64,000 nt of DNA from Amphiura filiformis (Eukaryota; Echinodermata; Ophiuroidea; Amphilepidida; Amphiuridae). Shown here piece after piece: positions 7,101 to 63,355 of the stretch (positions within the stretch are counted from its first letter, which is position 1; every line of letters starts with the position of its first letter). The stretch covers positions 52,107,365 to 52,171,364 of the forward strand of contig NC_092644.1 in NCBI RefSeq assembly GCF_039555335.1, in the 5' to 3' direction. The notes under the pieces were generated by a model. That model worked only from the letters and a program-made list of their open reading frames with translations. It searched no databases and was not told where the DNA came from. Both the position numbers and the translations under genes were made by a program.

Positions 7101-10100
7101 AACTCTCTGGGCACATAGTTTGTTATTGTTATTGCAGTTCTTTTCCACATACCTACGTTAACATTCGATTGGGTGATTTACTAATATTATATATTTTATG
7201 ACTGCAATTTGGCGTTTTCAATGCGTTTTACACGTATCATGAAATTAACGCAAATATCTAGTCACGCTGCTTTTAGAATTTTTACCTGATCGTCGGCTTT
7301 TGCAGGCAACAGAATGCAGATTGGGTCACAATAGATGTCGTATTCCTCTATGTGGTTCACTCATTGATAAAATGAGTTTGCATTCCTTGTAACAACACAC
7401 GCATTGCCGTCTGGAAACCGGGTCTGGTACTGATTTTGGGACAGCCAATAGACTTCAGCGCCGTATCAAATCTCATAAAAACCACACGACTGACGACTAT
7501 GTGTTTATGTTTCCCTGACGAAAGCTTGTGTCTACATCTATTACTATACTTCTTTGGAAGCGTTGACCTTTGACCATTCTTTGTATAACGCCTGATATGA
7601 CCTTGATATGTTAAGCTTGATTGGGTACGTTATAGCATCCATTTCATTGAGGTGTTAGGACTTGATCAGTAGATAATACTTGCAGGGATACAATAGTTTA
7701 ACATGGTGTGTGAGCATGGTGAAAGACTCATTATTGATTAGGCGGACATATTAAAGGCACAGGTCCTTTGCGTGTATAGCAGAAAATTATAATAGAATGT
7801 GTGAATAGAATGTTTGGAATTTTGCAACTAAAATACTAACTGCATTCTGCATTATGTATTTATTTATTTATTTAGGCCTATGCCTATTTATTTATTTACT
7901 GACTTATTTATTTATTTTATTTATTTGGTATATTAGTTAGTAGGCCTAGTTAGTAATATTCCATGATAGGCCTACGTCGGTTTATTATTGATTGTTGATA
8001 ACTTGACAACTTGATTGATTGATCGATTGATAGTCATTTCACATTATATTCCTAGTTTATAGGCCAATTTGAATAACATCGTACATTAGATAAATAGACC
8101 TATCAGTATTGATTTATTCTATTCAGCAATATCAAGGATTACTATCAAACTTCTCAAAGCTGATTGTCAGTTGGCTCAGTGGTAACGCAGTAGGTTTTAC
8201 AACACAGAGGTCCCGGGTTCGATTCCCACCTCTGCCTATTTTTTGCAAGGCTGAGAAAAAAATGAAATTTCTGGACTGCAAACTTATTTGGCGTGCGATC
8301 TGAGCTGGTCCTTTTCTGGTGGCTGTGTCTGTTACAGGCACACTCCCTCTGCATCCAAACCAGGTTCACGCTCATTGCACCTCCCTTAAATCATTTAGCA
8401 AAAATATTGTCAAATTTGTATTTACGTTCTGGTTAACAGAATTTTGTTTCTAGGATGCTTTACAAAATGGTGGGGGACTAAAGTAAAAGTAAATTACCTG
8501 AGATTACAACCAACATTAAACCCTAAACTATAAATTTTATGCTTCTTGGATACGGGGTGAATTGTAATGCCTCCAACGTGTGGGGCTGTTTCACTTGGAG
8601 CTACTTGTTCCCAGATGACATGTGATTTTTAGCCCATCACATTTTGGTCTTTAATAAAAAAAAAAAAGGAAAAATATGACATTTCACATGATTTCACTGA
8701 TTTTCTGAGACACAACCTCCCCCCCCCCCTTACCTTGTGCTTGTCAATTTGTTCTAAGCATCCCTTGCAAACAGCCTCATAATGCTGATGTAATCTGCCT
8801 AGGTATCGTACATGTAATTGTTCTATCTGTTGACACACCTCAGATATGTCCTTGTTCCACTGATACACAGCTGTCTTGGTGGAATTGGGTGGTTTCATTT
8901 GTCTGGGAAACAAATATGATGGATTATTACAATGTTTACTTGCCAAGGAAAAATATTCCTGTTACAACGTTTTGAATGCATTTTCTTGCAGGGACTGCCT
9001 TAAGAAGAGCCAGAGCAATCGCTCTCTTCTGCTCTCCTTAAGTTAAATCTGATATAGGAGTGATTCTTAGCTCTTCTTAGTTGACAATACTCTCATTACA
9101 TACTATTGTAAATGCTCTAAAAAGCTCTCATTGAAGGCTCCAGGAGAGCAATTTAATGCTCTCCTGCAAATTCTAAAAGACAGTCCCTGTTCTTGCTGTC
9201 TTGTTTCTTATTACTTTATGTTGTATGCTGATGGTTGGCTTTGCATATTTTGAAGGAGCTGCAAATATCCCAAATTTGATGAACCAAAGTGAACTAAGAT
9301 AGTTTCTTTGAAATTACTTTAGTTCAAAATTCAGGTAATTTTGCCAAATTCTGGAAATATTTTTGAAAATTTTATAACAAAAAACAATGAAAAATTGGCA
9401 CTTTTTCCAGAGTTTTGAAGAAAAGCACACTCTAACAATAATCATTGTTGTTAACAGCTAACAGAAGAGCAACATTTTTATTATTTGAGAGTTAATTCCA
9501 AACCATTTTCACCATAGTTGAGAGATTTTTTACCTTAGTGAGTTCAAGAGAGCCAGTCTCTTATGGTTCAGTATCTTCTGCTCACTCTGCATGTCTTCTA
9601 GTAACACTGTCACACCAGGTGGGTCAATTACTTCTTGGCTTTGCATATATTCCCTGCAATAACAAAAATGACAAAGAACACATCAACTACAACATCAGGA
9701 GAAGGGTTTACTACATATATTTGCTGGTTACTTCTCTTATGGTTACTCAAAATGCAGAGCTTTGCCTCTTTTTGTTAGGAATCATTAAACAAATCCGGAT
9801 TTAAAGATTCCCAATTGATTGAGGTCAGTTCTTGTTATGATTTAACAGCCTGGGGACATCAAAACCCTCATCAAAATACTTGAAAAACTAGCAAACTAGA
9901 GTGAAAATTGCAAAATGAATGAACAATGTATCATTTTTGATGTGCGCATAATCACATGCGTCCGCTGCATCCAGCCAGTAACTAGCTCTGTGTGAACGTA
10001 TCATGGTTGAGTGGCACAAACACGGGTGTTCATCGTGCTGTGCTTATTAATCTAAAAGTCCGATTGCACATGTAGTAAGTATGATAAAACATTAGTATGC

Positions 10101-13100
10101 ACATTTAACTGTCCATTTTAAGATGTTGGACCTGCCTATCTTCTATGACATGATATAGTCATTTCCCCTCTACATTTTGATCAGAACTTACGTAAACTGC
10201 TTGATAGCTACATCTGTATTGAGCTGTCTCCAATCAGCAACTCTTGTCTCCCAAATTCTGTGATGGTTCTTTTCTCTTTCAATATCACTCTTCATCAACC
10301 TATGTAAATTAAATTAAACATATATTATAGTCACACACTTAACTCTTTAACACAAGAAACTTTATTTTTGTCAACCTTTTCCTGAAAAACATACCATAAT
10401 CTACTAGGAGTGGGATATCAATATAAAAAGGCTGGATTTTGAGTCATATTTTACAGTTTGACAAACCCTTCTCCATAATTTGAAATACTGATCTCAGTTG
10501 TAGAAAAAACAAATACAGTGACTAATTGTGTGAGATCCAGCTCAACATTTTCTTATTAAGGTGATGGCAAACACATTTGACAGGCAATGGAAGTACAAAC
10601 ATTTTCCCTATAAAACTGTCAAAAAACTGGACAGGGATCTGATAGAAAATATATAGCCAAGTGCATCTTATATCCTTATTATCAAAATTGACTAGATTGT
10701 GAACATGGGATACATTAGCTGCTCCATGTAGCAGTGTTGTAGGTCTTGAGACTACAATCAACGAAAAAAGTCTTGGAACGCTTGCGTGTAAATAACGGAA
10801 AACTGTCACCCCCTCTCCCCTGTGCAATGTTGAGAAATGCCAATGTCTTCAGCGGTTCCCCAATGTGTTCCAACATTGCTTGATGGGGAGAGGGGAAGGG
10901 TAAATCATTGTTGTAGATGTCATGTTTCTATCCGAAACACAATATAGGTCATTTCCATGAACATAAGAAATTCTGCACGGAATCTTGACAGAGTGTGCTA
11001 AGCGTTCCAAGGACTTTTTTCGTTGATTGTCTCTACCGAATGCAAAATATTTCATCTAAATTTTGTTTTTTTCTCATAACTCAAAAACGGAATGTCGTAT
11101 GAGCTTCAAATTTCACACGATTTGAGAGTGGATTACATGCTTTGCAATCATAATAAAATTGTTGATAAAGAATTTGGTTTATTTAGGGAGTGGTCACCGA
11201 AAACACCCCAGGTGCTAAATTACACACGTTTCATAATTATAGCTCTAAACTGCTCTAAAATGTCGTTTTTGTCCATAGCTCAAAAACAGAATGTTGTATG
11301 AGCTTCATGTTGAACACGATTTGAGAGGGGGTTATATGCTTTGCAATCATAATAAAATTGTTGATACAGAATTTGATTTATTTAGGGAGTGGTCTCTCAA
11401 AACACCCCATATGCTAAATTACACACGTTTCATAATTATAGCTCTAAACTGCTCTAAAATGTCGTTTTTGTCCATAGCTCAAAAACAGAATGTTGTATGA
11501 GCTTCATGTTGAACACGATTTGAGAGGGGGTTATATGCTTTGCAATCATAATAAAATTGTTGATACAGAATTTGATTTATTTAGGGAGTGGTCTCTCAAA
11601 ACACCCCATATGCTAAATTACACACGTTTCATAGTTATGGCTTTAAACTGCTCTAAAATGTCGTTTTTGTCCATAACACAAAAACAGAATGTTGTATGAG
11701 CTTCATATTGCACACGATTAGGGAGTAGATAATATCCTTTTGAATCATAATAAAATTGTTGATAAAAATGTTGAGTTATTTAGGGAGTGGTCACTGACAA
11801 CACCTCCTATGCTAAATGACACAAGTTTTGTAATTATGGCCCTCTTCTGTATGATACTGAGTCAATTTTCGTTTTTGTCTCATAACTCAAAAACACTACA
11901 AATGAATTTTTCAGTACAATATCACAATGTTTTGCAACATGTTTTCCAAAATGTTTTTTTTTTTTTATTAAAACGTTTTGCACCCTTTATGATATAACCT
12001 AACGTGTTAAATTTATGTTTTTCACTAAAAAACCAAGAGAATCAGAAAGATTATGATGTAACAATTTGAAACAACTCATTTCTGAATATTATTTATAACA
12101 AAATACGCTTTGCGATGAGAAAAAAATAAAATAAAAAGAAACAACAATTTAATACACTTAAAGAAAAAGTATAGACCACCATTGGGACTCGAACCACACA
12201 TCAGTCAATAGCCAATAGGTTAACATCGGAGGACTAATCCACTCATGCGCTGTCATTGCACAAGCGAAGTAACAAGTTTTGTTCTTTTATAGTAGTCAGG
12301 TATCGGGAAAGTGTAAACTTGTATATAGAAATGGTAAAGTGTATCAATTTACCATAATGACAAAATGGTCAAAATACATTTTTTGTTTTAGGCGCATCTC
12401 AATTGGTATAGCAAACGTTCTTTAACATTTGCTATACCAATTGAGAAGTTTTAATGCAAAAAATGACATTTTGATCTTTTATTATGGAAACTGATAACAC
12501 TTTACCATTTCTACTATAAATAAATTTACATCGTTTTCCGATACCTGAATACAAAAGAACAAAACTTGTTACTCGATTATGTTTAAATGGCAGCGTATGA
12601 ACGGATTAGTCCTCAGACTGATAACCTTTTGACTATTGACCGATGTGGTCCTCAGACTAATAACCTTTGTCCCATTGGTGGTCTTTTTTAAAAGTATATT
12701 CAATTGTTGTTTTCTTTTTTCTTTTTTTGTTTTTTTTCTCATCGCAAAAGCGTATTTTAATATAAATAATATTCAGAAATAGTCCCAAACAAAAATGTTT
12801 GGTAGACTCATAACCGGTGCGATCTTACCTTTCCGATGTTGATTAAGATACTTCTTGCATCGATCCCGAGATGCGGAAAAACCAATAGTCATTTTGTCCC
12901 ACATAAATGAATAAATAACAAAACCCCCGATCCCCAGTGGACTCACCCATTCGGTGACGTCACACACGATAATCATCCCTTATCCGACTTGGGCAGCCCC
13001 TACTCGGCCAAACTTGTAGGGCGGCGGGGGTCGAGATAATCAACATCGGAAAGGTAAGATCGCGACGGTTATGAGTCTACCAAACATTTTTGTTTGGGAC

Positions 13101-16100
13101 TAGACTCAGTACACCGGTCGATCTTACCGTTTCGATGTTGATTAAGATACTTCTTGCATCAACATCTGAAAGATCGATCTAGCAAGTAACCGACGGATGG
13201 AGGTACAAGATTGGCCAGCATCTGATAAGGATCGGGAGAGTGGGTAGCATGGTAATCGCGAGGTCAAACTATTTCCCCCCCTCCCGGCCGGGAAACAGAA
13301 AGACTACGTGAACAGACAAAAACCCCTGAACTGAAAGTTCAGTGGTTAAGAATAGAAACACTGGTTCTTACCATGTTGGAATTCTGAATGTCCGCAAAAC
13401 ACCTGATACCCAACCACCATATTATCTCCGAGAATAGCCCTGGAGAACTTATCGCCTGGTCGTTGGTTTACGCTTTTGTAGTAAACCGTGGAAAAGGACG
13501 ACGGGTTCTTCCAAGACACAGCCTGACAAATCTCTTCAATGGGGACCCCCCTATGGTAGGCCCACGAAGATGAGATAGATCTGGTTGAGTGGGCCTTGGG
13601 CGGGCGTCTTTTGCCGCCCCGAGTCCACCAACACCTGGACCAGCCACCGTGCCAGAGTCTGTTTAGCGGCTGGACCGTGCGGTTCTGGGCGTGAGTGATA
13701 AATAAGCGGTCATGAGCCCCTCTTAAGGTTTGTGTTCGGCCAAGGTAGTGCTGTAGCGCCCTCACCGGGCACCACAACCTGTCTTCGGCTATTGACGAAC
13801 CCTGCCCAATACTGGGTAGGAAGAGGGGCGAGTGTCGGAATGTACTTCGCTCATTTTTGCAAGGAAATCCGGCGAAGAAACAGCGTCGCTCCGTTGTTAG
13901 TAATCACGGAGGCTGACTTGAGACTGCGTGCAACTCTGAGCAGCGCCGTCCGAAGCCAACGCCAGAAGAAAGGCCGCCTTAAGAGTGGCGTATTTAAGGG
14001 TCGCTTTTGACAGGGGCTCAAAGGGGACCCTTAATATACTCCAAGACTGTGTTGAGGTCCCATGGAGGGACCACCTTCCTTTCCGGTGAGCGCTCGTTGA
14101 ACATACCGTCGAGAAGAAGACTTAGGGACCCATCTGAATTGATAGTCGACCCGTCTTCAAATCCCGATGAATCGAGAGAATGGCTGACTTATAGTTGGCT
14201 ATCGTTGCCTGCTGAAGTCCTGACCTGAACTTTTCTGTCAGAAAATCTGCCACTAGAGGCACAGGGGCTCTAGTGGGAGATGTATTTCTCTCATCGCACC
14301 ATGCGTAGTAGGGAGCCAAAGCGCTGACTATACGCACGGAGGGTAGACTCTCGTCTACCCCCGGCGATAAGAGAAGCAGCTTCTGATGAAAAGCCTCCCT
14401 CCGCCGCACGTTCCCTGATAAGGGCCATGCAGCTAACTGCAGGTGCTCTAGTGGTAGACTTGGTACCTCTCCTCCGGGCATCCGAAGTAGATTTGGTAAC
14501 TCGGGGAGTACTCGCGGCTGTGCCGCTAGTAGATCCACCATCGGTCGAAACCACAGGTGTTTCGGCCAGAACGGTGCTATCAGAATGACGTTGCAATCTC
14601 CCTCCCGATCTTGGTCACCACCCTTGCGAGCAGTGAGATCGGGGAAAGCGTAAGCAGTCATTCCTCCCAGTCTCACGGACAGAGCGTCCACGGCGAATGC
14701 CTGTGGGTCTGCGACCCTCGAGCAGTACACCGGCAGCTGATGATTGCGATGAGATGCGAACAAATCTATCGAGGGGTGGTACATCACCTCGAAGATCGTC
14801 TGGGCGACCTGCGGAGCAAGGGACCATTCTGTAGGTCCCGACACCTTTCCTCGTGACAGATCGTCCGCGAGGATGTTGGTGACTCCGCTATGTGCATCGC
14901 TCTCAACGTAATCTGCCTGGCCTTGCACCACCCTATCAGGCGTGGTGCGTGCAGGCACAACCGTGGTGACCTGGTGCCCCCTTGTCTGTTGAGGTAGGCC
15001 ACCACGGTTGTGTTGTCCGCTTGGACAACGATATGAGATCCACGATCACCTTCTCGAAATGCTGGAGAGTTCTCTCCACTGCCCAAAGTTCGAGAAGGTT
15101 GATATGGAACTCCGTCTCCGTGGCCGACCATAGGCCCGAGACTGAGTCCCGTGGATGTGGCCCCCCAGCCCAGCTTTGGCGCGTCGGTCGTCACTACGTG
15201 GCCACCGCTGGTGCAGGGAACCTGACACCTTGAGTCAAATTGGGCTGATGGGTCCACCACCAGAGTTCTCTCGCGCGATCTCCGACATCGGAACCGCGAG
15301 GGATATTGGGTGACGACTGGGCCTGTAAAAGGCTAGAAGGTGTAGTTGTATAGGCCTCATGTGAAAGCGGCACGATGCAGTGCGAGGTCTACCATACTGG
15401 CCATAAGGCCCAAAACCTTCATCCATGCCACAGCGGGTGCTCCCTCTGACTCGGCCAAGAGTCGGGCACACCTCGCCATGTTCGTCACCCTCTCGGGTGA
15501 GGCGCCGCGATCCCTCCTTGAGGTTGATCTGGGCCCCTAAGAATAGTGGTGTCTGCGTCGGGACCAAATTGGATTTCTTGGCGTTGATCAGAAATCCCAG
15601 GTCCGCACCGTCACGGACTACTAACTCCACGAGACACTGTGTCTCCAGTGGGGGTGCGTCCGTAGAATGAACCAATCGTCCAGGTAGCAACACATGTTGA
15701 CTCCCCTGCGCTTCAGATGCGCTGCCACCTCCTGACCAGGAGTGTAAACACTCTGGGGGAGGTGGACAAGGCGAATGGCAGGCATCGAAACTGGTAAGTT
15801 TGACCCTGTACCTTGAAGCGTAGAAACCTCTGATCTTGAGGTGCGATCGGAACATGCAGATATGCGTCCGAGAGATCTAGCGATGCCGCCCACATACCCT
15901 TGATGGGGCAGGCTAGCACCGAAGCGAGAGTCTCCATTCTGAACCTCTTGGGCCTGATGAACTCGTTCAACGGCTTGAGGTTCAGAATGGGCCTCCAGTC
16001 GCCGGTCTTCTTTGGAGCCAGAAAAAAAGTGCTCCAAAACCCCTTGGTGAAAGGGGGGTAGACCGGGACAATCGCTTTTCGCGGAGAAGCTGAGTGACCT

Positions 16101-19100
16101 CTGACAGTAGTGCCCGACGCTGGGGGCCGTCTGGCGGCACTACCGTGGACCTCTGAATCGTGCAGGCGCACGAGGGTGGCTGGTAAATTCCAGCCTGTAA
16201 CCCCCACTGACCACTGACAATACCCAGGCGCCCGGTGAGATGGCATGCCATCTCTGGGCGTACTGCAACAAGCGACCGCCCACCGGGGGAAGCCCCTGTG
16301 GGAAGTCCAAGGCCTGGCGGCACGGGCTGTCGACCGCCGGGCCCTCAGGACCGATCTGGTTTGCCACCCTTAGAAGAACGGCTCTTCTTAGGGGCTTGCC
16401 ATCGATCCAGCACTACTCTTGCGCTTCCCAGATTTTTGGGAGGTGCTGGAGTAGCCTCGGCTCAGGTGTAGTCTGTGGTGCGCGTCCTGCTGAAGCGGAG
16501 CTGGCGCTGAAGAACGCTTAGAAGACTTCTTCTTCTTGTGCTTCTTCTTCGCCTTACTGCCCTTCCCTTGGTTAGGGCAGCCTCTGACTTCTTCAGAGTG
16601 CTCTCATTGGTGGCCTTCTTTGCCCGGTCCTCCACCGTGGCGCAAAAGGCCTGTCCAAAGAGTAGCCCCTGTCCCACCGAGTCTGACTTCTTCATTGCTT
16701 CAGCAAAGTCGGAGCCGTAAGTTGACTGGAGGGACAGACAGGCATTCTCCGGCGGCGAGATGACATCCTATGGGCTAGGCCCATAGAACTCTCGTTGAGG
16801 TTAGCTGTTAGCACCGCTAACAGATTAACCTCGCGGAAGAGTTCTGACGCGTTGCCCGTGGTCGTTCGCTACCTTCCTACCGAGGTGCTCGGCAAGCGTG
16901 GTAGCGACGCTAGAGACTCTGATAAGCGAGCGTGCTCGCTTATCGATGAGCTTTAGCTCCTCCTCCCACTGGGGGGGAGAACGACCCGTGCGCCTTGGCC
17001 GCTAGCGGCAGGCGCTTGGCAACGTCTGGATCCATGTCAGGGACCCTGAGGTAGGTTTCAGTAGTCCTCCTGCGAAACACGCAGTGGAAGCGTGCAAGCC
17101 CGCGGCGTCGAAGCTCCAGCGAGCCTGACAGCCCCTCTGAAACCTACCCTTGAGGTCCGCCGGGAATGCAAGTGCAGGCGACCCTTGTGTGGACGCGCTA
17201 GCTGGGCATCCTACTGAAAAGATGCCCTGGTCCTCCTGAACGGACTCCTCCTGAGAGAAAGCCAGGCCCAAACCTTGGGCCACACGGCTCATCACCTCAG
17301 CGGTGTCCGCAGGCAGACCATTGCTAGCGAAGTTCCTCACGGGAAGCGGGGAAGGATACCTGAAGCTAGCTGCACAGTCTCATCAGACTGTGAGTCGCTA
17401 CTGGTTTCATCTTCCGACTCCTTTCCCTCGCCTTCAGACTCTGACTCACTCTCTGATGAGGAAGAGATCTGACGACGGGCATCTGAAGGTGGACAGGGAG
17501 GTGTCGCCACCGTGTGGCTAGCCAACTGAACACCAGCAGAAGAGGGAGTACTCCCGCTAGACCCCGAGATGCTAGCTATAGCACCCGGGATCCGCGACGC
17601 TCTCGCTGCTGTCGCCCTAGCCATAGCAGTGTGCGGCCTACCCTGAGCTGTATCAGGGTTAGCCACTCGCCGCCGGGTTGGGTAACAACTGGTGGTACTG
17701 CTTGCCCAACGCTAGGCGGCACTTGCCACGGTGCTAGACCGTGGAAGAAACCACCCTGCGGCGGATACCACGGGGCATACCCTGTTGGTAGCTGACCCTG
17801 AAAGGATCCGCCACCAGGGAAACCCCATGGGAGCGGCAGTACCAGTACCGCCTCCCCCTGTTGCCACAGAGACTGTGGTAACCAGGACAGTACTGCGGTA
17901 CCTGCGTGGTTGTAGCGTAGGTGCCCGGTAGGGCTCCCGGCTGCGTACCACTGTACCCATGCCTCACAGCGTTCCCGCTAGAGGATCAAGCCGTGTGTAT
18001 GGGTACCCGCTATACTGGCTGTCCCTTGGCTAAAAGGAGCTTGCCTAGTATCACGGGTAGCTGAGCGTGTATACCCTCGATCAGTCACCTCGCTACCTGA
18101 ATAGGCAGTATCAATCAATGGAGCCATGCTCCGCTGAATAGATAGTGATCGATCATAAGAGGGTAATTGACCCATTGACTGTAATGGATCACCACGCTCT
18201 GCTGGCTCTCGAGGACATAAGTGGGTTGTTGATCAGCCAGGCTGTTCAAACTACCTACCCTAACCTCTTGAGCCTCGCCCAAGGTCGCTGTGTGTGGCGG
18301 ACCACTCACGGCAGCTATGGGCGCGTGCATAGTGGCTACCACTGAAGTCAAGCCGTAGCTCGTCTCGGTAGCTGCCACTGTTTGCACTTGGGTCGCTGTC
18401 CCGTGAGAGACTGCGAGCCCACCCCCGGTATAGCCGCTAGCCAGTCCCGGAGGACAGCCGGCAGCCATTCCAAGGCCCAGGGAATCACTCGGCGGTCCCA
18501 CCATGGAACGCTGCCGTGTGACAACCCCAGTTGGTTCTGCTAAGACTACACCCGAAGCGTTAGCCCCGGTATCGTCTCTGCTAAACCCATGCACGTTTTC
18601 ATTCGACCCTTGCGGGGAACGAAAAGCGTGCTGCGTGCCGTGGATCAACCCAGGCAAGCCCGGGGTTCCACTGGTACGCTGCGTGCTACAGACCGGCCGA
18701 GGCAAGTCCGCTGCACGCTGTATGCTAGGAGTCAACCCAGGCAAGCCCGGGGTGCCCTTGGCATACTGTCCGTCGCCGGCTACTTCGCGGGTGCTAGACC
18801 CGCTCGTTCGCCAGCAATAGACGGGTGTCCACCTGCAAGAAACTCGGTAGAGATCTCACTGGTAGACTGGTACTCGCCTGTTAGGGCAAGTACCGCCCTG
18901 CTGCCTGCTACTAGCTTAGACGTTAAGTCAGTGCTTTCGCTGGCTGCTAGGCCTTCGGGCTCGCTATCAGTCCCCGTAGGGTCCGCCTGCTTGCCCGGGA
19001 CCCGAGCCCCAGAGGTTACCTTAGCTTGGCCCTTGCCGGCCGCGCTAGTACCTACCATATCAATCTTACCTGTAGGCTTCTGTTTCTTAGTCTTCGTCTT

Positions 19101-22100
19101 CTGTCTGTGTCGAAGACCCAAAGCGAGCGCTACTTTCTAAATCGTCAAGTGGATGTCCGATAAGCCTATGCAAAAGGAAGCACACTTATTTGATTTAGAG
19201 CAATCCCTGTGGGTGTAGCAGAGTGGATGCGGGTCCCACTCTGCCACAAGGGAAGGGCATGATTGACAAGGCCTGGACATTGTAGTAATCGGGGAGCGTG
19301 TAGCACTACCCCCGAACACAAGCTCAAGCCCAATAAACAGACCCACACGCACAGTGGCTGACGCTGATGTAGTGGTATGATATAAAAATATATAAACAAA
19401 GGGATGAAAAACTGAAAACCTTTTGGGTATAGATTTGTCAGGCTGGTCCCTTCGGAAACCCACCGAACTCTTAGCAGTAACTCGTCATCAGACGCGTACT
19501 GAAAGATATAACGATAGAGCACACCATAAACATAGCGTAAAATCACTCACCATACATGTATACACAGTACTGTACAAACATCTATTGTAACTTACTAGTC
19601 TGCTATAGTTGTTTTACGTGAGAACAAAAATAAAATGGCGTCCTAAAGGCGGTTATTTTGAAACGTGTGTTCCGTGATCTAACGGAAACACTCATACAAG
19701 CTAAGTTTTTGGATCGTTTTTGTCACTTTTCTAGTCGAAAAATGTCGTCAAAACTATCTCCCTAGCGTACTATACTGGTTGGTTTTTACCTCAGGTGTAA
19801 CAAACAAACTGTATATCTCTTTTTTTTGTTCGTAATGATACTTAGCGTTGGTAAAGAAAAATCCACACGTCTATCTCATCTAGAAACCAAGGAGGATAAG
19901 GATGATTATCGTGTGTGACGTCACCGAATGGGTGAGTCCACTCGGGGATCGGGGGTTTTTGTTATTTATTCATTTATGTGGGACAAAATGACTATTGGTT
20001 TTTTCCGCATCTCGGGATCGATGCAAGAAGTATCTTAATCAACATCGGAAACGGTAAGATCGACCGGTGTACTGAGTCTGAGTTGTTTATGCATATTTAT
20101 TTCAATTCAAATTGGTAAACTTAACTGTTAACAAATTTGATATATGAAACGAATGTTTCATTCCTTTTGCAATAAAACATTTTCAATTGGTATAGCAAAT
20201 GTAAACGAACGTGACGCTTCGTGAGATGCGGCCTAAAAACATAAAATGTCGCTTTTGGACCATTTTGTCATTATGGTAAACTGATACATTTTGCCGTTTC
20301 TACTATAGAGTGCTTGCATGGAAGATCATTAAGTTCAAACCATCCTAAAGACACGCTCCAGAGGACATGCAAATGCACGGAGTACAATACCAATCACCTG
20401 TTTAACTGGTTTTGATCAAGTAATTCTTTGTACTCTATGCATTAGCATATCTTATGGAGCGTGTCTGGAGGATGATTTGAACCCATGACCTTTCGTGCAA
20501 ACACTCTATACAAGTTTACACTTTCCCGATACCTGACTACTATAAAAGAACAAAACTTGTTACTTCGATTGCGTAAATGGCAGCGTGGCGTGAAAGCGGA
20601 ATAGTCCTCAGACTGATAACCTTTTGACTATTGACCGATGTGAATGGTTCGAGTCCCAGTGGTGGTCTTTTTTTAAAATAGTATATTCAATTGTGTTTTT
20701 TTTTTCTTTTCTTTTTTTTTTCTCATCTCAAAAGCGTGTTTTAATATAAATAATATTCAGAAATGAGTAGTTTCAAATTGTTATATCATAATCTTTCTGA
20801 TTCGCTCGGATATGCCTATACTCAGCATACACAAGTTTTAGAGAAAACATTTACATGTTGGGTTATATCATAAAGGGTACAAAATGTTTTAAGTTTTAAT
20901 AACATTGAAAATATTTTGGAAACATGCTCCAAAGTATTGTGATATTGTAAAAAAATGTATTTGTAGTGTTTTTGAGTTACTGAGACAAAAACGAAATTTG
21001 ACTACAGTAGAGAGCATAATTACTGAAACTTGTGTAATTTAGCATAGGACGTGTATTCAGTGACCACTCCCTGAATAACTCAACATTTTTATCAACAATT
21101 TTATTATGATTCAAAAGGATATTATCTACTCTCAAATCTGGTGCAATATGAAACTCATACAACATTCTGTTTTTGAGTTATGGACAAAAGCGACATTTTA
21201 GAGCATTTTAGAGCCATGATTAAGAAACGTGAGTAATTTAGCATAGGGGGTGTTTCCAATGACCATTCCCTAAATAAACCAAATTCTTTATCAACAAGTT
21301 TATTATGATTACAAAGCATATAATCCACTCTCAATTCGTGTGCAATTTGAAGCTCATACGACATGCCGTTTTTGAGTTATGAGACAAAAACGAAATTTAG
21401 ATGAAATATTTTGCATTCGGCAGAGACAATCAACGAAAAAAAGTCCTTGGAACGCTTGCGTGTAAATAACGGAAAACTGTCACCCCCTCTCCCCCGTGCA
21501 ATGTTGAGAACTGCCAATGTCTTCAGCGGTTCCCCAATGTGTTCCAACATTGCTTGATGGGGAGAGGGGGAGGGGAAATCATTGTTGTAGATGTCACGTT
21601 TCTTCGCAAACACAATATAGGTCATTTCCATGAACATAAGAAATTCTGCACGGAATCTTGACAGAGTGTGCCAAGCGTTCCAAGGACTTTTTTCGTTGAT
21701 TGTAGCTCTCGGTCTCAAGACCGTCTCGAGACCTGGTTTTGCAGGTCTCGGTCTTGGATATCAAGGTCTCAGTCTCATGCAAGCATCAATTTGAATATTG
21801 CATATTATTGACATCGATTTGATGCCGATGATCGACTACAACACTGCCATGAAGACAGCCCTAAATTGTGCTACGTTTCAAACACAAGTCCACACAGATC
21901 TGCATTTGAGTTTAACATTGATGTGGGTTCTTGTATCTCATGTACACTGCCCCATTAACTAATCCAATGAACCTACCTTGCAAAGAGGTCACTATATGCC
22001 CTCCTATTATTGAGTATAGTTTGATTGATCACTTGCGATTCTTTTTCTATAAGTCTTTGGACATCTGGAGGCATCTGATACGCAATCTTTTCCAGCTTCT

Positions 22101-34087: not shown

Positions 34088-34466
34088 AACAAACTGAGTT
34101 TCCAGTGCTGAGCGGTAAACGATACTCGGAGACGTGACTGGTTCAGCCAAACACTGATGATGGTGCATGGCTTGAGCACATCAGGCATGTCCTGATGGCA
34201 GTGATGATATCAAATAATTTTAATTGATTTGAAATTCGCGATTGGCCTTTAATACAAGAGTTACAAGTTTTATCATGCACATATCCCCGGGCACATATCA
34301 AGTTAAAATTTGATTAAAAAAGTCCAAAGTTAAAGGAGTATTTCGTGATCCTCTTTTTATGACATTTTTCAGTACATATCCACGAAAAAAGCATATTCCC
34401 AAAATTTCAGTTGATTCCGATTTTGCGTTTGCGAGTTATGCATGATTATGTCATGTGTATTAAAGG

Positions 34467-35260
34467 TGACATCCCGCTATCTCTAAGGTCCGCTATCTCT
34501 AAGGTTCGCTATCTCTAAGGTTCGCTATCACTAACGCGTAAAGTCTATGGAGACAGAATCCCGCTATCTCTAATAGAGAAAAGGGTTCGTTATACCTAAA
34601 AAAAGGTCCGCTACTTCTAAGGTTCGATATCACTAATTTAAAATAAGGTTCGCTAGTTCTAAGGTTCGATATCACTAATTTTAAATAAGGTTCGCTATCA
34701 CTAATTTAAAATAAGGTTCGCTATCACTAATTTTGAATAAGGTCCGCTATCACTAATTTATTGAAGGTTCGCTATCTCTAAGGTTCGTTATCACTAATTC
34801 CAATAAAGGTTCGCTATACCTAAGGTTCGCTATCACTAATTTTAAATAAGGTTCGCTATCCCTAATTAATTAAGGTTCGCTATCTCTAAGGTTCGTTATC
34901 ACTAATTTCGATTAGGGTTCGCTATACCTAAGGTTCGTTATCACTAATTTTAAATAAGGTCCGCTATCTCTAATTTTAAAAAAAGGTCCGCTATCTCTAA
35001 TGTTAAAAAAGGTCCGCTATCTCTAATTTTTAAAAAGGTCCGCTATCTCTAATTTCAAATAAGGTCCGCTATCTCTAATTTTAAATAAGGTCCGCTATCT
35101 CTAATTTCAAATAAGGTCCGCTATCTCTAATTTCAAATAAGGTCCGCTATCTCTAATTTTAAATAGCGCCCGCTATTCCTAATTTTATATAAAGCCCACT
35201 ATACATCTCTAATTTTCAATAAAGTTCGCTCTTTCTGATTTAAATTAGCCCACTATCTCT
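34467..35260 (+). repeat. Short-repeat array, GG(T/C)(T/C)CGCTATCTCTAA type, forward
   Basis: About 25-30 copies of GGTTCGCTATCTCTAA or the CACTAA variant. Some are back to back (16-17 bp period); most carry a TTTTAAATAA-like linker (about 27-31 bp period). Copies decay towards 35200. Confidence 0.9.
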
Positions 35261-35376
35261 GACTTAAAAGTTATTTTAAATAAAGCGGGAAAGGCGCCCT
35301 CGAGTTGAATAGTTTATACGGGTGAAAATATACACATAAAGTACACGAACTCTTTAAAAAAAAAGCCGTTTCTTAA

Positions 35377-36027
35377 GGGATCCAAAATGAGCGTTTATTG
35401 CGTTTCGACAGTATTTTTTTGTGGGACATGAGAGCACCTCAGACCTATCGAATTGCATTCTGAATACGAAGCATGTCTTTCTGATATCAAATAATTTTCA
35501 TTTTTTAAATCACAATATAATACAAATTTTATGACAAATTATAAAAATTTGATATTTTCAGATTTTTGATATAACAGTCCTCGAAGTAAATTTTATAAAT
35601 CTAATGATATATTCTTAAAGTGTATGTAGCAGGAGGAAAAGCCGACGGTCAATTGAAAATTTTGACCTTTCATATTGAAGATATGGATTTTTCCCAAAAA
35701 GACCTAATTTTTTTTGGTGTTTTTTTTTAAAAAATTCATATCTTTAATACGAAAGGTCAACATTTTCAATTGATCGTCGGCTTTTCATCCCACCTACATA
35801 CACTTTAAGTATAAATCATCAGATTTATAAAGTTTACTTCAAGTACTGTTAAATATCAAAATATCAATTTTAATGATTTGCCATAAAATGTATTAAATTG
35901 CGAATTTCAAAAATCAAAATTATTTGATATCGGAATGACATTCTTCATATTCAGAATGCAATTCGATATGTCTGATGTGCTCTAATGTCCCAAAATAAAT
36001 ACTGTCCAAACGTTCATACCCCAGCCC
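35377..36027. mobile_element. TTAA-flanked 651-bp foldback element (nested)
   Basis: TTAA at 35373-35376 and 36028-36031. Two arms of about 300 bp meet near 35715, sharing TTGACCTTTCATATTGAAGA-type words in inverse. Ends are GGG(A/C)T... type. Relatives: half a copy at 59763-60125 and a diverged piece at 40020-40180. Confidence 0.78.
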
Positions 36028-36369
36028 TTAAACACACTAAAACTAAATTACAAGATAAAGTAGTCAATAGATAGAGAATTTTGTCATGCATATTTTCATG
36101 GCCTGCTACTATAAACTTGATGTGGGAGTTACCACCTGTTGATGGAAGCAGGAGGCTGCGGTCTTCGGATGGCTGGTAAAGCTGCCAATCTGAAGCCTGA
36201 TGTGTTATTGATGTAACTGCTTTATGGTAGGATGTTCCAAATGACACTGACCCCAAAGTGACCCCTTTTGTTGGGAAAAATCCTTGTTTTCCTTTCCATC
36301 ACATGTTGTTTGGAAGATATAAATTGCATAAAGGACCCCCTGTTCTGATTTTGATGATATCAATGATAT

Positions 36370-37535
36370 ATTTAAAGATGGAAGTAACTCGACGTATGGC
36401 CTAAAAATGCGACGACCCCTATTTAGCACCTAAAGTCTGTGGAAAGGGTTTTTTTGGGTGGTATGTACCATTTAAGGAGCATTTCCATGCGTTTTCGTGT
36501 CTTTATCTACTTAAAATGCACGTGAAAAAATGAGGACATCCACAAGCGCGTGCATGGACGCCACCAGGTTTTTCGCTGTACGTGCGTTTGCCGGGAATAG
36601 GCCTACATTCATTTCCAATTTAATAACAGCTCCGATTTTGGAGGAAGCTAGAAACCTTTTAATATGAGTAAAGAAGGGTTTAAAAATATAGAAAACAATG
36701 TTTATTGGTGTTTAAATTACAAAGAGACTTTTCAATGTTATTGTTAGCTGTTTTAACTATTTTTTTTGTAATTTAAATTCAAGTTTTGGCCTTCAATTTT
36801 GATTAAATTGCATAAAAATTAAGGTTTTTTTAAATAATTCATATAGGTATCTAGTTTGCTCTATCTATACCAATGTTTAGTGTGTTCCAAATTATTACTA
36901 ATAATCAAAGTTGAATTTATATTAAAAATTTAATTTCAAATAGTCAATCATCACATTTGCTTATTGGACAAAACGGGTTAAATCCGATGCTGGATGGGTG
37001 GGATAGGCCTGTTTGTGTTTCAATTTTTGATGATAGTACTTTTATTCCTAACATCTATTGATATCTTCATGAAAATTGCAAATCAGCAACTATAATGCGT
37101 TGAATTCGCCAGCGTGTCTAAAGTATATATATAGAAGAAAATAACCCAAAAATTAATGATTGTGAAGCAGTTTCCGGCTAAAGTTTATCACGCCTATAGT
37201 CCCAACTTTGCATAAAATCGTGTTTTACAGCTCTTGTGAATGTGATCTCTATCAATTTGAAAATAAAATGCGAAAATTTGAGCAATGTTTACGATTATGT
37301 GCGCATGAACATACGAGTTCAAAACGTGGTTAGCAGTCAGATGTAGGGTCTAAATACGGGAAAATCTGTCGCTAATTTTCTTAAAAAGTAGGCCTAAACC
37401 TAAAAATGTGGTATCATTTTCAGATATGCGGTATTTTGTTCTGATTTATGATATCAACAATATTATTATAAAGTTGGAGGTAACTCGACTAATGTCCTAA
37501 AACGCGACCCCCTATTTAGCACGTAGATTTAGGGA
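36370..37535 (+). repeat. Direct-repeat pair, about 110 bp, 1.1 kb apart
   Basis: GTAACTCGAC(G/T)(T/A)ATG(G/T)CCTAAAA ... CCCCTATTTAGCAC appears at about 36340-36447 and 37435-37535. The 1-kb sequence between is unrecognised. Confidence 0.5.
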
Positions 37536-37614
37536 AAAAAGTCTGAAATTAATTGGCAACTTCTGCATATTAAATTCAGACTTCCGCTCTCCCCATGGTT
37601 CATTTAGAATTGGG

Positions 37615-37820
37615 TAAATGAATCATGAAAGTACTCCGTCCTTCGGAGGGGACGTTAAGCCGTCAGTCCCGTGTGCAGAGAGCCATACCTGTATATGTAT
37701 TTCGCAGCCCGTCCCGGTGTTCAAATGGAACCCAATGGAAATAAGCTTCAATAGAGGCTTTCTTGGGTTATCCAGGGTTGTCAAAAACCCGAACAAATCA
37801 AATCAAATAAAACAATTAGC
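37615..37820 (+). repeat. SINE-like fragment with AAATC-type tail
   Basis: Contains GGGGACGTTAAGCCGTCAGT, CCCGTGTGCAGAGAGCC and ends in CCCGAACAAATCAAATCAAA. Related to 5846-5940. The 3' tail form suggests SINE/LINE mobilisation. Confidence 0.5.
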
Positions 37821-37904
37821 ATAGTTTATCGTAGAGGGCAGTACACAGCCCACTGTTTTTTGCCAGGCTTATTGACAATAATCGTGTGGTATTGCATATC
37901 GTAT

Positions 37905-37995
37905 GGATTCCCCATCTCTTTTCCCCTCCTCTCCCTATCTCCCCTCTCTTTCCCCTTCTCTTTTTCCCTCTCTCTCTCTCTCCTTTTCCCTTCGC
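37905..37995 (+). repeat. Pyrimidine-rich CT tract
   Basis: Almost pure C/T on the + strand for about 90 bp, ending in CTCTCTCTCTCT. Confidence 0.85.
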
Positions 37996-38576
37996 TAGGG
38001 CGGGGCCCAAATAGCGCTAGGGGGCGCAGGGTCTGACTGCATTCAAGTAGCACCACCCGCCAGGCAGCTACGCCACTGGATCAGAGAAGATATTCTCTGG
38101 TTTGATCAAGTAAAATAGGGTGAATAAATTATGATGCATCAAATGGCTTCAATTGGAATTAATTTCCTTAATTTTGGACAATTTTCCAATTTTTAACTTC
38201 CTCAGACACCTCCCCCTGCATAGACAATAGTGGATAAACAAGTCGCCGATTTCGTTTTTGTCACCCGGTACTTTGTGTTTAACACAATTATTTTATAGGC
38301 CTACAATTATAACAGAAAAAACTTGTGCCAAAATGGTCCACCAAATGACTTTAATTAGGTCTTCATTTTAGAAAGGTTTCTCACTTCTTAGGGGGACACA
38401 ACATACATGTATATCCCCAACACCTGAGCGCAACGCGATCGGCTATCAATTGTAGGCCTATACTGGTACGCGACGGTGAACTGATTCAAATCTCTTTCTG
38501 GGTTGTTCGGACCGGACCAGTATACGTACTAGCGATCTTGCAAACTTTATCATGTTTATTAAAATAAAATTACTGA

Positions 38577-39356
38577 TCATAGCGAACCTTACAGTAAATT
38601 AGAAATAACGGGTCCTATTTTAAATTAGATGGGCCTTATAGCGGGCCTTATTTTTAATTAGAGATAGCGGGCTTTATTTTAAAATAGCGAATTTTATTTT
38701 CAATTACAGATATGAAGCGGGCTTTATATAAAATTAGAGTTAGCGAACCCTATTTGGAATTAGAGACAACGAACCTTATTTGAAATTAGTGATAGCGAAC
38801 CTTATTTAAATTTAGAGATAGCGAACCTTATTTAAAATTAGAGATAGCGAACCTTATTTAAAATTAGATATAGCGAACCTTATTTAAAATTAGAGATAGC
38901 GAACCTTATTATAAATTAGAGATAGCGAACCTTGTTTGAAATTAGAGATAGGGAACCTTATTTAAAATTAGTGATAGCGAACCTTAGAGATAGCGAACCT
39001 TAGAGATAGCGAACCTTAGAGATAGCGGACCTTATTTGAAATTAGAGATAGCAAACCTTAGGGATACCGGGATTGTTAAAATTAGAGATAGCGGACCTTA
39101 TTTTAAATTAGTGATAGCGAACCTTAGAGATAGCGAACCTTCAATAAATTAGTGATAGCGGACCTTTTTTTAAAATTAGAGATAGCGGACCTTATTTAAA
39201 ATTAGTGATAACGAACCTTAGGTATAGCGAACCCTAATCGAAATTAGTGATAACGAACCTTAGAGATAGCGGACCTTTTTTGTAATTAGTGATAACGAAC
39301 CTTAGAGATAGCGAACCTTAGAGATAGCGAACCTTAGAGATAGCGAACCGTAACCG
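38577..39356 (-). repeat. Short-repeat array, inverted counterpart
   Basis: The same monomer read from the other strand (TTAGAGATAGCGAACCTTA and variants), with the same two periods. It faces the 34.5-35.3 kb array across 3.3 kb. Confidence 0.9.
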
Positions 39357-39619
39357 TATTAAACAGTGCTCCATAGACAATACGTTGTAATTTCGTTCTG
39401 GTAGCTTCTGGTGCACCAGAACGAAATTCAAATTTCGCGATATCTTTGCTAAACGAATTAATCTGCAAGATATATTTTAGCTTATTTTGTACATAAACAT
39501 TATGTAGCCAGAGTATTCCAGTGATATAAAAATCTCAACTTTTTTTGAGAAAAGTGGGGGGATGAGGCTGTGGATCACGAAATGCCCTTTTAATTTAATC
39601 ATATTTTTTATCAGTTTTT

Positions 39620-39955
39620 TTTTTAAGGTGGTCTAATTTTGTGACTAATTTTGCATTTTCCTCAAAAAATAACTACACATGCACTGGTAACAAAAGTTAC
39701 TAAGGGGCAAGGAATCCAATTACTTCACTGAAATTTCAGTGATTCAAGACAAGTCTTGTCTTGAATCAAAGTGGTTCATTATATATGTTAAGAAATTATG
39801 TACCGGTACATTCTCTACCTCTTTTCTTATCATATCGCTACGGTCTTGAGCTGAAATTCCAGTGTAGTAACAGTAACTTTTGTTACCAGTGTTATTATTT
39901 TTGTAGAAAAATGCAAAAATAGTCACAAATTCATCAAGCGGTGTAGTCATAAATC
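39620..39955. mobile_element. Diverged palindromic MITE related to 44512-44863
   Basis: AAGGTGGTCTAATTTTGTG at the left and CACAAATTCATCAAGCGGTG at the right are degraded versions of the ends of the 44.5-kb MITE; inner arms share TGCATTTTTC and GGTAACAAAAGTTAC. Confidence 0.5.
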
Positions 39956-39959
39956 TAAT

Positions 39960-40742
39960 GATAGGCCCTATAGGCCTAGTGTAGCTGTAGCTAGCTGGGA
40001 TGGGATGGAAAAGACCATGAGTTGAAAATGTTCACCTTTCATATTGAAGATAGATAATGCATTTTCCCCCAAAAGACATTTGTTTGGTGTTGGAAAAAAC
40101 ATATAGGCCTATCTTCGAAAGTCAAAATTTTTATTTCATAATGATGGTCTACTTTTCATCCCGGCTATAGGCCTACATTCGTTGGTTCCATCTTGTTTCT
40201 ACAGATTGCTACGAACTGATGTGCATATCCCTGGGATTCAAAGTTTTGAGGTAAGTTTTGCTCATTTTTAGACTTAAATCACTAAGATTGAAAAAAAAAA
40301 AAAGAATGATTAGTGAATGATTAGGTTTGCAAAAGTGAAATTTGCAGTTGCATTCGAGTTTTTATCACGAAAAGCTTTGCAACTCGGTAATCAAGCATTC
40401 GACAAATTTTGAAACTGGGACTGACCCTGCCCACCCCTTTTGGGACCGTAATTTTTGCCGCCCCCACCCATTACGTTCCCAAACTTTTATGACCCCTATC
40501 CCCCATGTATTTCTGAACACTCCGTATAAGGACTAATAAGGTCATGTATCGTCAAGTTTTATAGCCCCGGAGTTTAGCCTACGTGGAAACCTGAGGTAGG
40601 CCTAAAAGTAAAGGTAGAAAGACTCAACTGAGTGACTCAAAGAATGTCTTGAAGGAAGCCTGAACTTAAAAAATAGACTCAAAAACCGTCGACTCGAAAA
40701 TGAATGTAAATAAATAAATAAATAAGTAAATAAGTAAATAAG

Positions 40743-54756: not shown

Positions 54757-55904
54757 GACAGACAAATTTCTACTCTTAATTTCGGAAGCGCAGTTTACAG
54801 AAACAGCTGGACAGTGCATACCCCATGGAATACCCGGAAGTTAATGGGAAAATCCCAAATGACTCACAAATTGTCTCGTTACAATTTAGAGGGCGCTATA
54901 CGACTTTACGACAACAGCCCTGGACAACAGCATCATAACAGCAGCAGTATATGAAGAGCTTATTTCCAAACCGTGTTAAGTCCACCCACCTTCAAAATTG
55001 AGATTTTGATGAAAATGGGTAGTGAGTAACTAGGGCTATCCAGCAATGTGTTTGGTTTTTCCCAAAATTAGTCAAGTTCCGAAATATTGACACACAAAGT
55101 ATCGATTTTTTTCCAATGCAGTTTTGTAGCAAACTGTGCACAGTGCACAGTGTCGACTTCCTATTCGATAAATATAAATTTAATACTCCGTTGGTGAGCG
55201 ACGGGCGACTGGTATTTCACCGAACGCAAGAAAAGGAGTTCTATCTGATTGGCTAGCATAGCAATCGATCGCTTAGGTCGCTTAGTAGTCAACTATAAAC
55301 TCAAAACTGAGCATCGTATTCAATTCGATTGAAATCGATATTCTATTATTGCCGTAGATAAAGAGAGTAATAGTGTGTCAATAATGTACATTGTATTGCA
55401 GCTGGATTTTACATGCATTCTTTTATATAAATTTTTTCTCAAAGAGTTGAATATGATCAAAATTTTTACTCAGGATTTCAAATTTTTTACCCGCAAATTG
55501 CAGTTAAACATATCCACAGCAAAATACCGGTCCTCACTAATTAGTGTATTTAATTTCCAGTTAGTGTATTTAAGATAAAACCTGACAACAAATAAATTTT
55601 CTTGCAATAGAAATATCATATGGGATACTGATATGGTAGGCCGCAACCGCCACAACGGAGCTGGATATACGCGTAGCTGACTTTTTGCTCCGTGGAGCCA
55701 AATTGACCAATCATGATCATGTTAGAGTTTTTCATTACTCGGAGGTAAAACTGACTAATTAAGTACGACTTACTCATTACGTGAAGCGAATTTATTCATT
55801 AAGAATTTTCCAGACGAGCGTCACGTAGTTGCAAGATATCCTCGGTCACGAAAGTTATGATTCAAAAAGTAGTTTATGAAAAGTACGAACTGACTTATTA
55901 TTAA

Positions 55905-56611
55905 AGGGGGGTAACCCTATTGGTTTTGGATATGGATTGTCTTTAAAATTACATAATAATATCAAATATCGCCTCCTTTATGCTGCTTTGTGAAAAAACG
56001 AGAGCATTTTCAGCGTAAATGTGAATAAATAGCCAAATTTGCAATCCAATACCTTGGTATACGTGAATTGCATTCTGGGCAGGCAATGACGAATGCTGAC
56101 ATGCTGTACAATGCCCGGCCCGTATTGAACGGAAAATGTTTTTTTTCGTACCGTTTCAGAAAAAAGGAAACAAAATATATTTCCCCTTGCAATATGTACA
56201 TTTCAAATGAATATAAAAAAGTTTGGGTAAAATGGAGAGGAAAAAAACCCTTCCGATACCGGGTTTTGAACCGGGTACCTCTCGGGTAAAAACAAACGCG
56301 CTAGTCAATTGAGCTATTTAGCACACCACGCTTACTGTTGCCGTTTTCATAACTATATACGGCGCAGCGTCTTGCGGTGACTGATATTTCGTTCATAATT
56401 CCCTCCCAGAATTCCAAAGTATTTACCATTGTTTACAAACTGGTATACCTGTAAAAACCGCTGTGATTCATGATTTCTCCGGAAATACATCGACTTGGAG
56501 CGTCAAATTTCAGGATAGTAATGAGAAAAATAGTATCTATTATGTGATACCAAAACCTCATCAACAATGAAAAAAATCGGGGGATGATGCTGTCGATCGG
56601 GTTACGGACCT
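55905..56611. mobile_element. TTAA-flanked MITE with tRNA-like segment, copy 1 (707 bp)
   Basis: TTAA at 55901-55904 and 56612-56615. Ends AGGGGGGTAACCCTATTGG and, inverted, AGGTCCGTAACCCGATCG. Closely similar to copy 2. Confidence 0.85.
56250..56335 (-). repeat. tRNA-like segment in TTAA MITE copy 1
   Basis: Minus strand: A-box-like TAGCTCAATTGACTAGCG and B-box-like GGTTCAAAACC in correct order and spacing. The T stem has a central mismatch and no acceptor stem is evident, so it is not a functional tRNA. Confidence 0.6.
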
Positions 56612-56790
56612 TTAAGATGGACATGCACTCATAAGAAACTCATACAGTATTGTACATAACTATATAGCTAGGCAGAGTGGTGGTAAACTATGCACACAGT
56701 TCTGCGATCTGCAGTGTATCGCCGGGAGCTAATTTGTATAACTTGCGCGGTGTCCCTGCGGAATTCGACCTTCAGCAAACTGCAAACCAC

Positions 56791-59660: not shown

Positions 59661-59762
59661 ATCTTGTGGACTTAACACGGTTTGGAAATAAGCTCTTCAT
59701 ATATAATCAGGCTACCTTCGCAGGTAGGTAGAATTTATTTATTTATACTTTCTTTAAGACGG

Positions 59763-60125
59763 ATCTGGAATGAGCGTTTCGACAGTATTTTTTACCCGGG
59801 ATTTTTTATGGAACATGAGAGCACCTCAGACGTATCGAATTGTATTCTGAATACGAAACATATATTTCTGATATCAAATAATTTTCATTTTTTGAAAATC
59901 ACGATACAATAGGCCTACAAATTGTATGACAAATTCCCGGGACAAATTATAAAAATTTGATATTTTTCAAATTTTTGATATAGGGCCTATAACAGTCCTC
60001 GAAGTAAATTTTATAAATCTAATGACATATTCTTAAAGTGTATGTAGCTGGGAGGAAAAGCCGACGATCAATTGAAAATTTTGACCTTTCATATTGAAGA
60101 TATGGATTTTTCCCCAAAAGACCAA
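59763..60125. repeat. Half copy of the 35.4-kb TTAA foldback element
   Basis: Matches 35385-35705 from GAGCGTTT(C)GACAGTATTTTT to GATATGGATTTTTCCC, with small insertions (GGGCCTATAAC). Confidence 0.8.
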
Positions 60126-60376
60126 TTTTTATCAATGAAAACACTGATCTTCCTGGGGGCCCTGCAAGAGCCGAACATTTACAAATATACAACTTAAATA
60201 ATATTTAGGCCTATACTGAGTACATGAGGAAAAATATACATAGTTGAATATGAAATAATTATGAGTACATTATGAACTTATTATGCTGATTAATTAAATT
60301 ATCTTGGTTGAGGTGCACAATGTAGTATTCTTAAGCATGGAGAGACTCATTGTATTAATAGTTACTACGAATCTTA

Positions 60377-63351: not shown

Positions 63352-63355
63352 TTAA

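Follow-up and report, generated by a model that had tools for sequence, protein, structure and literature searches.

The window analysed here is a 64-kb stretch of the genome of the brittle star Amphiura filiformis (64,000 nt of contig NC_092644.1; all positions are those of the window). It carries a 5.26-kb element bounded by TTAA sites, with a short terminal inverted repeat (TIR) at each end and, inside these, two facing arrays of a 16-bp core. The parts of the element, from left to right, are as follows.

34330-39593, whole TTAA element including its TTAA sites (5.26 kb)
34330-34351, plus strand, left TTAA (34330-34333) and 18-bp TIR AGGAGTATTTCGTGATCC
34352-34470, no strand assigned, left flanking domain from TIR to array, without detectable likeness to the right one
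34471-35262, plus strand, left array, 33 units of GGTTCGCTATCTCTAA at up to 5 mismatches (26 at up to 2)
34872-35001, plus strand, near-identical block of the left arm, 128/130 identical, inverted, to 39148-39277
35183-35222, plus strand, inner border TTTTATATAAAGCCC of the left arm, with its right-arm counterpart at 38694-38733
36032-38560, no strand assigned, middle domain, no credible Pfam match among the 10 open reading frames (ORFs) scanned
38573-39349, minus strand, right array in opposite orientation, 31 units at up to 5 mismatches (27 at up to 2)
39148-39277, minus strand, near-identical block of the right arm, 128/130 identical to 34872-35001
39350-39571, no strand assigned, right flanking domain, holding a subterminal palindrome (39389-39428)
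39572-39593, minus strand, right 18-bp TIR AAGGGCATTTCGTGATCC and TTAA (39590-39593)

Ends and Arrays

The left and right ends agree at 19 of 22 positions including the TTAA, and at 15 of 18 within the TIR. In a control using 1000 Markov shuffles of the flanks, a TTAA-anchored TIR match of at least 15/18 was never reached (best 13). A preliminary description of the locus, made from the letters alone, had proposed a TTAA element with TIRs and two facing arrays; its coordinates were exact, and both the TIR ends and the opposite orientation of the arrays are present as it described them.

At up to 2 mismatches from the core, all 26 units of the left array lie on the plus strand and all 27 of the right array on the minus strand, which agrees with the 25-30 copies per array first estimated. 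Allowing 3 mismatches gives 28 units on each side and a single lone match in the rest of the window, at nt 1340 (also found at up to 2), where the Markov expectation is 0.3 for the whole window. With 5 mismatches there are 26 matches outside the arrays, which is chance level (33.3 expected in the window), so that confidence is lowest for the few innermost units. The 62 unit spacings fall mainly into the two period classes noted previously, 18 having no linker (16-bp period) and 31 a 10-bp linker (26-bp period), with 13 others; the linker consensus TTTTAAATAA had also been read correctly, and Tandem Repeats Finder returned periods of 16, 26 and 42 bp in agreement.

Spacing may be associated with the sequence of the unit. 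A linker follows all 17 units that end in CACTAA, compared with 27 of the 45 other units (Fisher p 0.0013, a nominal value because the units are not independent). The CpG at core positions 5-6 is retained in 61 of 64 units, possibly reflecting constraint on the core. No first-harmonic signal of core phasing was detected at 10, 10.5 or 11 bp, and although the 10-bp linker is close to one helical turn, nothing is drawn from this length as the tandem copies are not independent.

The Arrays as Homologous Arms

Read inwards from the ends of the element, the two arrays pass through the same zones in the same order: first a few direct repeats of 16 bp, then alternating 16- and 26-bp spacings, then mainly 26-bp spacings, and finally the border TTTTATATAAAGCCC. 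Each arm has a single copy of this border and of the linker TTTCGATTAG, and the rest of the window has neither. A 9-bp linker TTTATTGAA and an 11-bp linker TTTTAAAAAAA appear once each in the linker list of either arm, these short strings being found elsewhere as well, on the minus strand; their order is reversed between the arms, which points to block duplication or exchange. The 130-bp block that is nearly identical in the two arms contains a stretch of 80/80 identical positions; the remaining 80-bp windows compared between the arms, within the eight best diagonals, are 92.5-93.8% identical. Arm complementarity extends over 260 nt at 85% and 130 nt at 98%.

The common zoning, border, rare linkers and 130-bp block indicate that the arms either had a common ancestor that was repetitive already or have been exchanging sequence, and that rearrangements have followed. 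The element thus has long inverted arms with internal tandem repeats on either side of a middle domain, and the arrays form the two homologous arms of one imperfect inverted repeat that is itself built of repeats, which is a foldback architecture. Of the three suggestions originally made for the arrays (transposase-binding arrays, a fold-back structure or a replication feature), it is the fold-back structure that the anatomy supports directly.

Coding Capacity and Classification

The element contains 40 stop-to-stop ORFs of at least 40 amino acids (aa), of which 10 were scanned against Pfam. The only line returned was Gram_pos_anchor (E 0.21, 12 bits, under the cut-off of 20), so the earlier statement that the element has no coding capacity holds for these 10 ORFs. 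The window as a whole has 25 ORFs of at least 120 aa; 10 were scanned, six of which gave matches (DUF4455, OCIA, CARD, reverse transcriptase twice, and a tyrosine-recombinase under cut-off) and four none. No Kolobok transposase (DDE, THAP or H2CH motifs) was found among the 10 of 40 element ORFs and 10 of 25 large window ORFs scanned, which is expected for a non-autonomous copy.

Classification turns on the termini. The papers cited here by their PubMed Central (PMC) numbers were available in excerpt, and what is said of them applies to those excerpts. Kolobok elements are described as having a TTAA target and 5'-RR/YY-3' termini, stated as unlike piggyBac (PMC9587614). AGGRR is the end of the T2-MITE/Kolobok group (MITE, miniature inverted-repeat transposable element), and Kolobok transposases usually carry a THAP domain (PMC6004289). 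TTAA is present at both ends of the element (34330-34333 and 39590-39593), and the termini begin with AG and AA, in agreement with 5'-RR ... YY-3'. The left end, AGGAG, also fits AGGRR; the right end, AAGGG, strictly does not. Both termini thus support the Kolobok-type TTAA element proposed in the preliminary description and would place it in this superfamily. That it belongs instead to piggyBac or some other TTAA group appears unlikely. The TTAA target is common to both superfamilies and there is no transposase to decide between them, but the terminal motif of piggyBac is CC[C/T]T (PMC2872659), whereas the ends here begin AGGA and AAGG, and it is the 5'-RR that is said to set Kolobok apart (PMC9587614).

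Related Ends and Neighbouring Elements

Three further features lie inside the element or elsewhere in the window.

6772-6895, plus strand, degenerate second copy of the right end (74% identity), starting exactly at the TTAA boundary, here TTAC
8386-8433, plus strand, continuation of this second copy (83% identity) beyond a nested TTAA element (6892-8389)
35373-36031, no strand assigned, nested palindromic TTAA element (659 bp), own ends 11/18 alike, TTAAGGG...ATGARCG

The studied element shows the uninterrupted site at the point where 6892-8389 splits the second copy. No convincing partner end for this copy was found, the nearest candidate (at 21986) having 7/22 mismatches; with neither an array nor a partner end, this copy is either a remnant or a relative without an array. 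The TTAA element at 55901-56615 is more distant, with 20/30 end positions in common with the right end of the studied element, where unrelated TTAA-anchored positions reach at most 17. The preliminary description had named as contrary evidence arrays occurring freely as satellite and TTAA ends not shared by other copies, and neither was seen within the window. The nested palindromic element has relatives at 59737-60130 and at about 39950-40160; like the divergence of the flanks and the homology of the arms, it did not figure in that description. Its hairpin (35638-35784) was considered as a microRNA and rejected, as it matched several Rfam families below their gathering scores, in what look like generic long-hairpin matches.

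Some other repeats were observed in the window. The TTAA element at 6892-8389, inserted in the second right-end copy, has own ends that are 12/18 alike, and a tRNA-like stretch was seen by eye inside it near 8170-8240; ARAGORN reported no tRNA in the window. The element at 55901-56615 has AGG ends (AGGGGGGTAACCC / AGGTCCGTAACCC) that are 13/18 alike, and a further copy of one of them lies at 63355 (28/30 positions). A retroelement at 13346-16369, spread over several frames, gave the reverse transcriptase and sub-cut-off tyrosine-recombinase matches, and we take it to be DIRS-like. There are also 199-bp tandem repeats at 11058-11837 and 20967-21398. The genes in the window are of animal-like character.

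Scans for the core or the ends found 28 stretches in GTDB and, in IMG/VR, one stretch in one scan, two in another and none in the others, among them the scan for the nested palindromic element. The resulting 31 loci carry isolated matches to the motif and nothing more. Against the whole element, the best E value per locus ranged from 0.002 to 1.0 and the longest alignment was 40 bp; such weak, short alignments indicate that none of these GTDB or IMG/VR loci holds the element or its array. In the sole locus read by eye (L014, a Thalassotalea contig), degenerate repeats stand in tandem next to a tRNA-like gene, and the core matches are coincidental.

Origin and Possible Role of the Arrays

Taken together, the element is probably a non-autonomous cut-and-paste transposon, of the TTAA/Kolobok type, in which a foldback architecture has arisen, with arrays that possibly multiply the sites for a THAP-bearing transposase. 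Its layout would be one of short TIRs, two homologous arms built of the 16-bp core and an optional 10-bp AT-rich linker, and a middle in which no coding sequence was detected. An autonomous relative would provide the transposase in trans; this enzyme would cut at the TTAA sites, and this is how the element would have moved. The DNA-binding domain of that enzyme, in Kolobok usually a THAP zinc finger, would recognise the subterminal core, and the many copies of the core at each end could raise local occupancy and specificity. The arms would lengthen and shorten through slippage and unequal exchange, and sequence may pass from one arm to the other through fold-back gene conversion or through gap repair. 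Binding at the arrays is proposed by analogy. In Galileo, a Drosophila transposon, THAP domains bind sites in the tandem repeats of the long, foldback-like TIRs; the presence of multiple sites is proposed there as the source of specificity (PMC3688188). Together with the THAP domain of Kolobok transposases, this suggests the arrays as amplified transposase-binding sites. Within the element itself, the retained CpG of the core lends the binding role modest support.

Several observations weigh against this interpretation. Heterozygosity is 0.125 in the core and 0.232 in the linker (31 units), a difference that is not significant by permutation (p 0.077), so constraint on the core is not shown. 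The Galileo precedent is small, with added THAP sites in the first two of four repeats only, and no transposition was detected in vivo (PMC3688188). The second right-end copy (6772-8433) is not followed by an array, and the arrays may accordingly be dispensable, or that copy truncated. The homology of the arms does not run unbroken from the very end, unlike that of a continuous foldback TIR: after the 22-bp end, the left and right flanking domains between TIR and array differ, with no detectable similarity (213/300 shuffles score as high). The end match, if unanchored, reached at least 19/22 in 1 of 1000 Markov shuffles. Finally, within the 64-kb window there was no transposase in the ORFs scanned, and neither an autonomous partner nor an intact second copy was seen.

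The serious rival is that the arrays are neutral. The element would be the same Kolobok-like one, but slippage and unequal exchange would have multiplied an ancestral TIR segment in tandem, and the copies would play no part in binding; we judge this a substantial possibility, though the less favoured one. Within-arm 80-bp windows at 95-97.5% identity reveal local duplication, and the non-significant core-linker difference and the array-less related end both suit it. So does Xmix, a T2-MITE of Xenopus that holds an amplified segment, Xstir, for which the excerpt mentions no binding role (PMC6004289). Neutral amplification accounts less readily for two arms that match in zone order and have similar numbers of copies, and for the core CpG, but equal zoning and CpG retention can also result from shared ancestry together with homogenisation.

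Two other explanations are very improbable. Arrays of short units can be satellites, and the unanchored match in one shuffle would allow the TTAA ends of a fragmented or inverted ordinary satellite to be fortuitous; however, no array independent of the element, and only the one lone core match at up to 3 mismatches, exists elsewhere in the 64 kb, the TTAA-anchored TIR was unmatched in 1000 shuffles, and the second copy of the right end starts at its TTAA. It is just as hard to credit a replication or transcription feature (an origin, an insulator or a source of double-stranded RNA from the inverted arms). Arms of this length could give a hairpin RNA if transcribed, but the Rfam matches in 34300-39700 (E <= 0.1) lie only in the nested palindrome, below gathering scores, with none in the arrays. 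Nothing pointing to a replication feature turned up, no test aimed at one having been run.

Comparison with Known Elements

The preliminary description knew of no described family with this layout. That claim was too broad, given that Foldback, Galileo and Tetris have internally repetitive long TIRs according to the excerpts available. Sea urchin TU elements have such TIRs as well, and both these and the Drosophila FB elements possess inverted arms with short tandem units, with target duplications that are longer and not TTAA. Galileo is not known to target TTAA either. Short repeated subterminal motifs are found in the hAT element Buster1, again on the excerpt available, and in maize En/Spm and Ac/Ds, where they are bound by transposase; all three belong to other superfamilies, have fewer copies and are not known to have long homologous arms. 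In Tol2, to go by the title of a paper, a highly repetitive subterminal sequence is reportedly essential for transposition.

TU and FB are classed as foldbacks, and an independent origin of foldback arms in different transposon lineages has been suggested (PMC4079207). Galileo, of the P superfamily, resembles the present element in its long TIRs with internal tandem repeats, which expand and contract independently in each arm (PMC3573991) and carry THAP sites in two of four repeats (PMC3688188), but its units are about 210 bp (F subfamily; PMC3573991) rather than 16/26 bp. Tetris of Drosophila virilis is likewise non-autonomous, with a non-coding middle and TIRs composed of flanking, outer tandem-repeat and inner domains; it differs in its 220-bp repeats, its autonomous source was not found (PMC4079207), and in the present element the flanks differ between the ends. 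Kolobok elements, including the Xenopus T2-MITE Xmix-Xstir, share the TTAA target and 5'-RR ends, and Xmix the amplified internal segment (PMC6004289), but facing subterminal arrays are not mentioned in the excerpts, and in KolobokP the long terminal repeats are direct, not inverted (PMC9587614). The coral CMITEs also have a TTAA target, and tandem arrays attributed to slippage; these consist of whole small MITEs in tandem, the ends are CC[C/T]T, and facing subterminal arrays are not mentioned in the excerpt (PMC2872659).

A foldback layout joined to Kolobok ends was not found among the matches listed in the open-licence PMC literature, Repbase being outside the search. PMC papers that pair Kolobok with subterminal or with foldback do not describe the layout in the excerpts available, and the letters of the core motif gave only apparently unrelated matches in the literature. 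What is new is thus the pairing of a foldback architecture with Kolobok-like ends, the architecture itself being known from Foldback, Galileo and Tetris. A more far-reaching proposal, which we put forward tentatively and think somewhat doubtful, is that end recognition in a Kolobok lineage has shifted from the short TIR to a large subterminal array, under continual homogenisation, that comprises some 60 THAP sites; this would be a case of convergence with Galileo, the arms copying each other by fold-back conversion. If true, this would be the first foldback-type Kolobok known to us. The role of foldback repeats has been tested in few cases, and a TTAA/Kolobok-like element with about 30 short, regular units per end would offer an independent test of whether such repeats are transposase-binding sites or the product of drift.

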